DNA from: a virus
IMG/VR virus record: IMGVR_UViG_3300045974_000197
Coordinates: 1-31,582 of that record
Reading direction: 5' to 3' (one strand)
DNA length: 31,582 bases
Part shown: positions 9,585 to 13,649 of the stretch, piece by piece
How positions within the stretch are numbered: the stretch's first letter is position 1
Layout: every line of letters begins with the position of its first letter
Notes under the pieces: generated by a model
The model's input: the letters and a program-made list of their open reading frames with translations, nothing else
What the model was told of the DNA's origin: nothing
The model's database searches: none
Position numbers and translations under genes: made by a program

Positions 9585-10010
9585 ATGAAAGCATTTGGAT
9601 TATTCCTGGTAGACCTGAACAATGGCAGCACGCATGCCGGGCTGACTGGCGACTTGAATGAGTTGCTGCAGGCCGTCAAAAACACGGGCCGCACGGGCAG
9701 CATGACTTTGAAAATCAAGGTCAGTAACGGCAGCAAGGCTAGCGGCGATGTAGACCGAATCATCATCGTGGCAGAGCGCAAGCTAGAGCTACCCAAGCCC
9801 GAGCAGCCGCAGGATTTCTTTTGGCTCACAGACGATGCAGAGCCCACCCGCCAACACCCACGCCAGCATGCGCTGGACTTGCGCAGCGCGGGCTACGAAC
9901 GCGGCGGCGTGCGCGACACCATTACCGCTGCCTTTGTGGCCAGCGCGCCCACCACCTTTACCCAACCTGACGCCGATGGCGTTATCACTCACCTGAAAGA
10001 AGCCAAATAA
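9585..10010 (+). CDS. Conserved phage protein upstream of DUF2303 gene
   Basis: A 141-aa protein. Residues 1-65 (MKAFGLFLVDLNNGSTHAG, then TLKIKVSNGSKASGDVDRII) form a small beta-rich domain, followed by a Pro-rich segment ending DFFWLTDD. This architecture is what I know from phage proteins placed directly before the YfdQ/DUF2303 gene, and that gene starts here in the stop codon (TAATG). Function unknown, but the pairing suggests a shared pathway. Confidence 0.65.
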   Translation: MKAFGLFLVDLNNGSTHAGLTGDLNELLQAVKNTGRTGSMTLKIKVSNGSKASGDVDRIIIVAERKLELPKPEQPQDFFWLTDDAEPTRQHPRQHALDLRSAGYERGGVRDTITAAFVASAPTTFTQPDADGVITHLKEAK

Positions 10011-11829: not shown

Positions 11830-12074
11830 ACCAAACCCGAGTTGGCTCGCTGATTGAAGCCTTTATGAATGTGGCTATCGGCTTTGGCATCAACATGTGC
11901 GCAAACTTTTTGATATTGCCGCTGATTGGGTTTCACATAACCCTGAGCCAAAACCTGTTTATCGGCGTGCTTTATACCGGCATCAGCGTGGCGCGCAGCT
12001 ATGTTATTCGACGTTGGTTTAATGCTCGGCTGCATGCGGCGGCGCAGCGCCTGGCCGGTAGGGCGGCAGCATGA
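11826..12074 (+). CDS. DUF7220-like two-helix membrane protein
   Basis: An 82-aa protein. The sequence pattern SLIEAFMNVAIGFGINMCAN, then NLFIGVLYTGISVARSYVIR and RRWFN, matches small phage membrane proteins I know as DUF7220. Two membrane segments are predicted (residues about 14-35 and 43-60), with a basic C-terminus inside. Role unknown. Early expression argues against a holin role. Confidence 0.7.
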   Translation: MNQTRVGSLIEAFMNVAIGFGINMCANFLILPLIGFHITLSQNLFIGVLYTGISVARSYVIRRWFNARLHAAAQRLAGRAAA

Positions 12075-12253
12075 AGCAAGGTTTTGTATTGGTGTGGCCC
12101 AACGGAAAACCCCGCAGCATGGGTGGTCCGTTTGACATTCTTTATGCACCACGCAGCAAGCTGGCCACAGCCACACCACCGGCCAAACGCGGCCCAAAGC
12201 CTAAGCCTATGACGATCAAGGCGAAAAAATCTATGGTCGGGGCATATGAATGA
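12071..12253 (+). CDS. Small basic early protein
   Basis: A 60-aa protein. A short folded start (FVLVWPNGKPRSMGGPFDIL) is followed by a Lys/Pro-rich tail (PPAKRGPKPKPMTIKAKKSM) that looks like a nucleic-acid-binding tail. The stop lies 8 bp inside the methyltransferase start, so translation is probably coupled to it. Confidence 0.5.
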   Translation: MKQGFVLVWPNGKPRSMGGPFDILYAPRSKLATATPPAKRGPKPKPMTIKAKKSMVGAYE

Positions 12254-13173
12254 GCTACATCTATTCGCAGGCGCTGGTGGCGGAATACTCGCAGGGCAGT
12301 TGCTCGGGCACCGATGTGTTTGCGCCGTTGAATGGGAACCCTATGCCCAAGCTGTGCTTTTGGCACGACAGGACGATGGAAGTTTCCCACCATTCCCGAT
12401 TTGGACTGACGTGCAAACCTTTGACGGAACGCCATGGCGCGGCCTTGTTGACGTGGTGGCGGGCGGGTTTCCGTGCCAAGACATATCCGTTGCGGGGGGG
12501 GGGGGCGGGCCTTGACGGCCAGCGCAGCGGAATGTGGCACCACATGGCCCGCATCATTGGCGAAGTACGACCCAGCTACGCATTCATTGAAAACAGCCCA
12601 GCACTCGTTAATCGAGGACTTGACCGGGTGCTCGCTGACCTTGCCAAGCTCGGGTTTGATGCGCGATGGACAGTGCTGGGAGCATCCGACGTGGACGCCC
12701 CGCACCACCGCCAAAGAATCTGGATACTGGCAAACGCCATCAGCCAGCGATGCAACACGCGGCGGGACGATCACCGACAAGATGACCGGCCAGAGCCTGG
12801 TGCAGATGGTGAACACACCCAGCAAGTGGCCGACGCCAACAGCTTGCGGGAACTACAACCGCAAGGGTATGAGTGCGACCAGCGGGGATGGGCTGGCGAC
12901 AGCGGTAAAGATATACCCCACAGCCACAGCCACAGCCTACAAAGGATGGTCACCGAACCACAACCGTGCGGAGACAAACGACCGGCCGGACTACACGATA
13001 GAACGTCAGGGTTTTGCCCCTGGCCAGCAGACCCCGCCGATGCGCTTGAACCCCGATTGGGTCGAGTGGCTAATGGGGTGGCCTATCGGGCAAACCGAAT
13101 TAAAGCCATTGGAAACGGCCAAGTTCCAAGAGTGGCAGCAACAGCATTCAATTTTCTAAAGAATCAACTATGA
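12246..13173 (+). CDS. C5 cytosine DNA methyltransferase, interrupted by frameshift at G12
   Basis: The first 89 codons (12246-12515) carry motif I (HLFAGAGG, residues 5-12), motif II Glu in VEWEPYAQ, and motif IV GGFPCQDISVAG with catalytic Cys77. They then run into a 12-G tract (12494-12505) and stop at 12513-12515. In the +1 frame the protein continues with GLDGQRSGMW, motif VI-like AFIENSPAL, motif VIII HHRQRIWILA, a target-recognition region and motif X GNGQVP, ending at 13173. One G fewer restores about 308 residues. Its stop overlaps the next start (ATGA), so the +1 frame is the true end. The tract could be phase variation, a natural mutation or a read error. Target site is unknown. 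Confidence 0.85.
12473..13159 (+). CDS. Overlapping phage protein ending in the WVEWLMGWP motif
   Basis: Up to 228 aa in a third frame, read across the methyltransferase. GTG at 12473 is one start; TTG at 12512, just after the G tract, is another. The sequence looks like a real family: LAKYDPATHSLKTAQHSL, LPSSGLMRDGQCWEHPTW, WQTPSASDATRGG, WPTPTACGNYNRKG and the C-terminal NPDWVEWLMGWPIG. I recall these motifs from phage proteins beside, or fused to, cytosine methyltransferases. The strand is therefore coding in two frames over about 650 bp. No catalytic residues are identifiable. Function unknown. Confidence 0.7.
   Translation: MPRHIRCGGGGRALTASAAECGTTWPASLAKYDPATHSLKTAQHSLIEDLTGCSLTLPSSGLMRDGQCWEHPTWTPRTTAKESGYWQTPSASDATRGGTITDKMTGQSLVQMVNTPSKWPTPTACGNYNRKGMSATSGDGLATAVKIYPTATATAYKGWSPNHNRAETNDRPDYTIERQGFAPGQQTPPMRLNPDWVEWLMGWPIGQTELKPLETAKFQEWQQQHSIF
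12494..12505 (+). repeat. G12 homopolymer in the methyltransferase gene
   Basis: Twelve consecutive G between motif IV and GLDGQRSG. In related enzymes this place reads VAGKGAGL, so the tract falls within codons for small residues and tolerates change. Such tracts are a known substrate for slipped-strand mispairing. Confidence 0.95.
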
Positions 13174-13649
13174 ACCACCGTCAAAATCTGGCATTAAGCC
13201 CCGTGCAACGCAAGACTATCAATCTGATTAAACACCCGGTATGGCGCGCCCTTGCAGTCGAGCCCCTGGAGAAAAAAGAACAGGTACGGCTATCCCTGGA
13301 CTCGCATGCCGCGTTTGATGAAATCGTGCATGGCCGTGGCACTACTGCCCACATTGATGAATTGGCTGTAGCTGCAAATACCTGCCTGGTGCTGTGCGAG
13401 CGCGGCTTTGGCCCCGAGTGCGAGCCAAAGATTATTGAAGGCCAAGAGGCCATTGTGCGTATCAAGATGCGCTGTTTGCAGGGCAAGGCTATTGGGCTAG
13501 ATGGCCTGGGTGCGCAAGCCCTACGCGATATGTTGGATATTCAAGCCCAGCAGATGGAACATGCAGGACAAAAGGAGGTAGCGATTGCGATTCTTGAAGT
13601 GCACAAGCGCGCCACCAGCGGGCATACGTTTAAGGTAGTTGCAGCATGA
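13170..13649 (+). CDS. Early protein of unknown function
   Basis: A 159-aa protein starting inside the methyltransferase stop (ATGA). It is mostly helical (EKKEQVRLSLDSHAAFDEIV, THIDELAVAANTCLVLCERG-type segments). A middle region IIEGQEAIVRIKMRC is followed by a long C-terminal helix (LRDMLDIQAQQMEHAGQKEV). Related proteins occur in betaproteobacterial phages in my recollection, without a role. Overlaps the next gene by 4 bp. Confidence 0.65.
   Translation: MNHRQNLALSPVQRKTINLIKHPVWRALAVEPLEKKEQVRLSLDSHAAFDEIVHGRGTTAHIDELAVAANTCLVLCERGFGPECEPKIIEGQEAIVRIKMRCLQGKAIGLDGLGAQALRDMLDIQAQQMEHAGQKEVAIAILEVHKRATSGHTFKVVAA

Follow-up and report, generated by a model that had tools for sequence, protein, structure and literature searches.

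The locus analyzed here raises the question of whether one piece of phage DNA encodes two proteins in two frames of the same strand and, if so, what the second protein might do. The window (the whole stretch analyzed, i.e., all 31,582 nucleotides of IMG/VR virus record IMGVR_UViG_3300045974_000197) is a 31.6-kb virus contig carrying an integrase and tail/head genes. A reading made from its sequence alone had proposed that the C-terminal half of a methyltransferase and a "WVEWLMGWP-type" phage protein are read from the same bases at 12512–13159. Both frames are open on the plus strand at this place, and the pair of segments quoted as an example, IENSPALVNRGL opposite LKTAQHSLIEDL, occurs in the two translations. 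The overlap of the methyltransferase stop with the next gene, the end of the second frame 14 bp earlier, and the presence of motifs VI, VIII, and X in a C-terminal half matching PF00145 were likewise confirmed (Table 1). Below, "MTase" denotes the C5-cytosine methyltransferase frame and "ALT" the frame at +1 relative to it. The MTase frame matches Pfam PF00145 (1.7e-13) and PHROG 363, and ALT matches PHROG 1008 (2.9e-21) and PHROG 26627, in keeping with the claim that two recognizable families are encoded. Searches of Pfam, NCBIfam, and PDB gave no match for ALT; a glycolipid transfer protein returned by hmmsearch of the PDB was rejected as a chance-level hit (E 1.2). No match was obtained when most of the window was compared with INPHARED by megablast. 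Elsewhere in the window, a 281-amino-acid ORF at 10010–10855 matches PHROG 210 (1.3e-61), a family whose function is not known.

Table 1. Positions of the two overlapping frames, their motifs, and the adjoining genes in the window
Feature	Positions	Strand	Basis and remarks
Upstream ORF	12071..12253	+	Stop TGA 12251–12253 overlaps ALT ATG as ATGA
MTase N-half (alpha)	12246..12515	+	Pfam PF00145 8.3e-12, profile positions 2–78; translation; holds motif I (FAGAGGG) and motif IV (GGFPCQDIS); frame lost past G12 tract, stop at 12513–12515
ALT N-part (beta)	12250..12493	+	Begins with ATG 12250, 4 nt past MTase ATG 12246
Poly-G tract (G12)	12494..12505	+	G11 is the in-frame length
MTase C-half (alpha)	12506..13173	+	Pfam PF00145, PHROG 363; stop TGA 13171–13173
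MTase motif VI (ENS)	12589..12597	+	
MTase motif VIII (HHRQRIW)	12703..12723	+	
MTase motif X (GNGQVP)	13111..13128	+	
ALT C-part (beta)	12512..13159	+	PHROG 1008 2.9e-21; stop TAA 13157–13159; holds KYDPATHSLKTAQ region and PTPTA repeats
ALT motif IX-like segment (NPDWVEWLMGWP)	13049..13084	+	
Next gene (PHROG 20828, function not known)	13170..13649	+	ATG 13170 overlaps MTase stop (ATGA)

The sequence-only reading had not noticed that the MTase is broken in the window copy by a run of 12 G residues, which no other homopolymer in the window equals in size. This tract puts the MTase N-half, the MTase C-half, and the ALT C-half in three different frames, such that PF00145 matches both MTase halves but in different frames; with 11 G, the MTase would be a single ORF. 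The twelfth G makes the ORF at 12250–13173 a chimera of the ALT N-part and the MTase C-half, and the ALT C-part is cut off from its own start. Scanning IMG/VR contigs for motif IV codons followed by at least eight G residues yielded at least 119 virus contigs with such a tract, its length ranging from 8 to 17 G; these lengths are mostly taken from metagenome assemblies, in which long G runs may be miscounted or break contigs. An assembly error may lie behind the tract length of any one contig, that of the window included. Among the matches listed, 115 tract contigs could be scored, with 83 in frame, 20 at −1, and 12 at +1. The −1 alleles join the MTase N-half to the ALT C-part, and the window copy is of the +1 type. 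ALT always lies at +1 to the MTase C-half in the tract contigs listed, with the exception of L311, in which an indel joins them. Within the same set of matches, the in-frame share (72%) exceeded one third (p 2e-17), and out-of-frame alleles were found in 32 of 115 loci with the tract versus 1 of 193 without it (p 2e-14); both p-values are upper bounds on the evidence, since some contigs are near-identical and not fully independent. Frame-broken loci were also considered as cases of odd ALT frames, an interpretation that was rejected since they are poly-G slips.

Slippage-driven phase variation predicts that tract lengths should vary between near-identical contigs. Contigs L305 and L382 carry G17 and G10, respectively, between flanks that are 100% identical across 1,622 bp, and the near-identical pairs L346/L379 (G11 versus G10) and L293/L372 (G14 versus G15) also differ in the tract. 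The locus thus has a repeat within a coding region that takes both in-frame and out-of-frame lengths among close relatives, as phase-variable simple sequence repeats (SSRs) do, and we consider it very likely that the tract is a phase-variable site in the MTase/ALT family. Switching would presumably be reversible. There is nevertheless an appreciable, if minority, chance that G12 in the window arose from an error of assembly or sequencing and that the real phage has G11, both genes intact, and no switch at this site, given that G homopolymers are error-prone and that several contigs end at the tract. Against such an error stand the number of contigs with tracts of 8 to 17 G, the division of the matches listed into 72% in frame and 28% out of frame, and the length differences between near-identical contigs. 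That the window copy is truly OFF, and not miscounted, seems reasonably probable; the error would in any case concern the tract alone and is compatible with the two-subunit interpretation developed below.

Whether ALT is a genuine coding frame was addressed by counting stops across homologues. Homologues were gathered with ALT as the query (46 virus loci and 80 bacterial loci) and, as a guard against bias, with a second query consisting only of the MTase N-half; in plasmids, ALT was represented by only eight weak records. In 210 non-identical loci, ALT occupies the +1 frame relative to the MTase, with its end mostly within a few codons of the MTase stop. Expected stop counts came from shuffling synonymous codons while keeping the MTase protein. 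Over the C-terminal part, the +1 frame contained 46 stops versus 623 expected (198 loci; a 13-fold depletion), whereas the +2 control frame contained 1,994 versus 1,844 expected, i.e., about as many as predicted. Homologues with stops in one frame, named by the sequence-only reading as the evidence that would speak against double coding, proved to be the exception, with the C-terminal part of ALT stop-free in 171 of 198 loci versus 8 expected. Since stop depletion also holds over the MTase N-half (21 stops in the +1 frame versus 250 expected, with the ALT N-part open in 194 of 202 loci versus 59 expected), ALT covers the whole gene. The overlap of about 650 bp first described is thus open throughout but too short, as ALT spans the entire gene from a conserved start at 12250. 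Double coding of this kind had been called rare; within this gene family, overlap is the rule.

Comparison of codon positions across homologues, the check originally proposed for this overlap, showed purifying selection on both frames. Over 70 independent pairs, the ratio dNN/dNS for ALT (wALT) was 0.48 (bootstrap, 0.42 to 0.55), and dNN/dSN for the MTase (wMT) was 0.41. Part of the departure of wALT from 1 is a bias of the measure, because simulated evolution under MTase constraint alone gave wALT values of 0.58 to 1.06, varying with transition bias; the observed wALT on the pairs used against this null was 0.39, and the null left ALT open in just 2 to 6 of 43 cases. Selection was also distributed differently along the two frames, a pattern that the MTase-only null does not reproduce. 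wALT and wMT were 0.34 and 0.17 over motifs V–VIII, 0.32 and 0.74 over the variable region, 0.17 and 0.64 over the IX-like region, and 0.39 and 0.09 over motif X, respectively. The MTase is therefore constrained at motifs I–VIII and X and nearly neutral in between, where ALT is constrained. In several pairs ALT is better conserved than the MTase (91% versus 78% for L088/L091; 87% versus 73% for L149/L177). Both frames are thus open beyond chance and under purifying selection, as in a same-strand overlapping gene pair. We regard it as practically certain that ALT is a conserved, selected frame and that the dual coding is real, and the sequence evidence suggests that both frames are translated.

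The two frames begin almost together. In the context (A/G/T)TG-AATGAG, 161 of 199 loci have the ALT ATG 4 nt past the MTase start, and the second MTase codon, an Asn codon, is AAT rather than AAC in a ratio of 162:6, versus 116:112 at other Asn codons (Fisher p 3e-26). The ALT start codon is under selection. A Shine-Dalgarno-like sequence was found in 121 of 168 loci, mostly 4 to 5 nt ahead of the MTase start and therefore 8 to 9 nt before the ALT ATG. An upstream ORF ends at the ALT ATG, with the same offset as in the window, in 53 homologous loci; in 83 loci, such a stop coincides with the MTase start. A main ALT start within the MTase, near codons 89 to 93 (TTG/ATG past the tract), was rejected: no start codon is conserved at that place, and the ALT frame upstream of it is kept free of stops.

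What ALT contributes is suggested by what the MTase frame lacks. The C5 MTase motifs I, IV (PCQ), VI (ENV/ENS), and VIII (QRxR) occur in order in the MTase frame, but the PF00145 match ends after motif VIII, and a target-recognition domain and motif IX were not found in this chain; its residues 181 to 282 are predicted to be disordered (pLDDT below 50), and in the model of the homologue L008, the similarity to M.HhaI and M.HaeIII is confined to their large domain (Foldseek 1e-14, about 170 columns). ALT, on the other hand, contains a KYDPATHSLKTAQ region and PTPTA repeats (a probable target-recognition region), followed by the motif IX-like segment; all three are conserved in the 118-sequence alignment A5, and wALT over them is 0.34, 0.32, and 0.17, respectively. 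By strict patterns, 140 of 210 loci have a IX-like motif in the +1 frame and motif X in the MTase frame. The distribution of motifs shifts in nine related loci (L016, L018, L066, L106, L110, L132, L142, L179, and L202), in which the MTase ORF lacks motif X, in most of them ending shortly past motif VIII, and ALT carries IX and/or X. In these loci, motif X in ALT comes after the target region and IX-like segment, and the C-termini of the ALT ORFs match the MTase motif X end (hhalign P 98.9, E 2e-17). In L090, L095, and L311, an indel joins motifs I–VIII in frame to the ALT target region and IX. A single-chain counterpart is the MTase of mycobacteriophage RitaG, which holds motifs I–VIII, LLPTPSASDGTGG, RLTAAFPEWMMGWPAGWVT, and CGNGVCP in one chain. 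In a search of only 16 sequences, the ALT profile matched the RitaG MTase over the target region and IX (2e-10) and those of the actinophages Papez, Graduation, and CheeseTouch over IX (5e-5 to 7e-5). Against the classical bacterial MTase motif IX (RRLTPRECARLMGFP), ALT aligned in the correct register, which was not significant alone (hhalign E 0.09). The AlphaFold model of ALT was poor (mean pLDDT, 56; pTM, 0.26), with confident parts only around residues 100 to 145 and at the motif IX helix; such a result might be anticipated if ALT folds on its partner, but it does not support that reading.

Other loci show further arrangements. The MTase frame of L056, L134, and L191 stops just past VIII, and ALT has IX without X; with motif X seemingly on neither chain, these may be decayed copies or a different arrangement. 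In Gordonia phage CheeseTouch (L398) and in Papez (L430), motifs IX and X have their place in the MTase frame, and the ALT N-part and PTPTA region are still present at +1, a mosaic state that should be useful for ordering the exchange between frames. In the prophage of Escherichia coli PCP07014 (L429, 1200–1961), RefSeq flags the MTase as a pseudogene owing to an internal stop, and ALT also contains one stop, both frames decaying together; this copy was left out of the analysis because it is decayed in each frame.

On this evidence, ALT is likely to be one of two subunits of a split C5 MTase, with the MTase frame encoding the other. Against this assignment stand the poor ALT model, the lack of Pfam, NCBIfam, and PDB matches, the motif IX alignment that is not significant alone, and the few loci (L056, L134, and L191) seemingly without motif X on either chain. 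What the sequence-only reading called a WVEWLMGWP-type phage protein is a recognizable family, and it looks more like the MTase's own partner than like an unrelated protein. ALT might instead be translated as an independent phage protein, e.g., a regulator or counter-defence factor, that merely lies on the MTase gene; the selection on ALT over motifs V–VIII, where it is unlike any MTase part, and the lack of a Pfam match would fit such a protein. We nevertheless consider this improbable, as the essential motif IX, and X in the nine loci, are found in ALT and not in the MTase ORF, the RitaG MTase has the target-region and IX segment in its own frame, and relatives of ALT in the 80 bacterial loci overlap an MTase wherever scored, with none seen alone. 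It is more improbable still that a single polypeptide is made by ribosomes that shift into ALT past VIII for the target region and IX and return for X. The resulting motif order would equal that of a single-chain MTase such as RitaG's, but two shifts of opposite sense would be required, the selected ALT start and stop-free ALT N-part would serve no purpose, and the selection on ALT over motifs V–VIII would be left unexplained. Finally, an untranslated ALT, left open by the codon and amino acid make-up of the MTase or as a fossil of a frameshifted small domain, can be dismissed almost entirely: some conserved ALT segments are indeed by-products of MTase motif X (LETDKFQEWQQQH, over which wALT is 1.07 in 49-pair windows), but the stop depletion was measured against shuffles that keep the MTase protein, wALT is 0.17 to 0.34 over three regions versus 0.58 to 1.06 under the null, and the start codon is selected.

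A model of the locus is proposed that builds on the dual open frames, the selection on both, the selected start codon, the distribution of motifs, and the tract variation, all observed by computation; taken as a whole, we judge it likely to be correct. Two subunit genes of a C5-cytosine DNA methyltransferase would be superimposed on the same DNA in two frames, with ribosomes starting either at the MTase codon, to give alpha, or at the +1 ATG 4 nt downstream, to give beta (ALT), probably from one ribosome-binding site. Alpha is hypothesized to fold into the large catalytic domain, with motifs I–VIII plus X, and beta to provide a small DNA-reading domain comprising the probable target-recognition region and motif IX. 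The predicted heterodimer would form an active enzyme whose putative methylation activity marks phage DNA, most likely against host restriction, a role that we infer. In a subset of phages, that of the window included, the poly-G tract in the shared part would change length by slippage, and changes by a number of bases not divisible by three would break both subunits together and produce chimeras, the pair thus being switched ON or OFF; the G12 of the window would be an OFF length. A broader generalization, toward which we lean only slightly, is that in several bacterial phyla the majority of phage C5 MTases of this kind work only as heterodimers encoded on exactly the same DNA from twin starts 4 nt apart, a subset of them with a poly-G contingency switch that disables or rejoins both subunits.

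To our knowledge, few long same-strand overlaps with two recognizable products, both selected, are known outside small viruses, and overlaps of this type are discarded by annotation pipelines. The overlap described here is ancient, is conserved in hundreds of phages, and occurs in phages and prophages of many phyla; what it encodes looks like a single enzyme divided into its two domains. If true, this would account for the apparent lack of motif IX and of a folded target-recognition domain in many phage C5 MTases, for the absence of catalytic motifs from PHROG 1008, a family labeled "DNA methyltransferase," and for the failure that such genes might show upon expression in recoded form. One slip in the tract would also rewire two proteins, joining the alpha N-half to the beta C-half or the reverse. 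The locus lends itself to a clean test of what overlapping genes do, and it is a candidate contingency locus in phages.

The ALT frame can also be traced in existing annotation. PHROGs 1008, 26627, 27243, 31772, and 35493 match it, of which 1008 and 31772 are labeled "DNA methyltransferase" although the matching ALT products lack catalytic motifs. In Acidovorax phage Alfacinha1 (L432, 259–1392), UYL85549.1, annotated as a "cytosine-specific methyltransferase," matches the ALT profile (1.3e-29) and lacks MTase motifs I–VIII, i.e., the ALT frame is annotated under the MTase name. In Paenibacillus phage Shelly, the ALT frame in the C5 MTase gene is annotated as SHELLY_56, "g55 internal gene," and in coliphage N15 it lies unannotated within gene 58, a C5 MTase gene; neither has a poly-G tract at this site. 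Acinetobacter, Microcystis, and Salmonella phages also carry the ALT frame.

Among split C5 MTases, M.EcoHK31I has a small subunit that is read from another frame within the large gene. Most C5 MTases are monomers, and M.AquI consists of two polypeptides, with motifs I–VIII and IX–X, respectively (PMC3404938). According to the passage of the same article that cites Lee, Kam and Shaw (1995), M.EcoHK31I (YGGCCR) has I–VIII, X, and the predicted target-recognition domain in one polypeptide and IX in another. Our locus shares with M.EcoHK31I, as portrayed in that passage, the placement of I–VIII and X in a large polypeptide and of IX in a second one. It differs from that description in that the predicted target-recognition domain of M.EcoHK31I is in the large subunit, whereas selection here places this region in ALT (wALT, 0.32; wMT, 0.74), and in that our frames, found in phages and prophages and in some cases with a poly-G tract, overlap completely from twin starts. 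The arrangement of M.AquI is approached only by the nine relatives in which ALT, rather than the MTase ORF, carries motif X; in most loci, as in the window (13111–13128), this motif lies in the large frame. Precedents for the overlap itself are an "apparent total overlap" of two C5-MTase frames in Streptococcus thermophilus 5093-group phages and earlier cases in Streptococcus pneumoniae phage MM1 and Tn5252 (PMC5601072). There, too, one stretch of DNA yields two products from different frames, each named a C5 MTase, but these overlaps were presented as a striking feature of a few elements, without a selection test, subunit model, or poly-G tract; in the literature that we found on such overlaps, none came with a selection test, subunit assignment, or tract. 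Overlapping C5-MTase frames in a few streptococcal elements and split C5 MTases were thus already known, whereas the breadth, twin start, selection evidence, subunit assignment, and tract are new. With respect to the tract, our locus resembles bacterial SSR MTases in having a homopolymer in coding sequence with lengths in and out of frame, but here the gene belongs to a phage and the tract is shared by two overlapping genes, such that one slip would disable both and make chimeras. Phase-variable MTases of bacteria, e.g., of Neisseria and Campylobacter, are SSR contingency loci. Collectively, these comparisons place the locus among the natural split C5 MTases as a variant, not as a separate kind.
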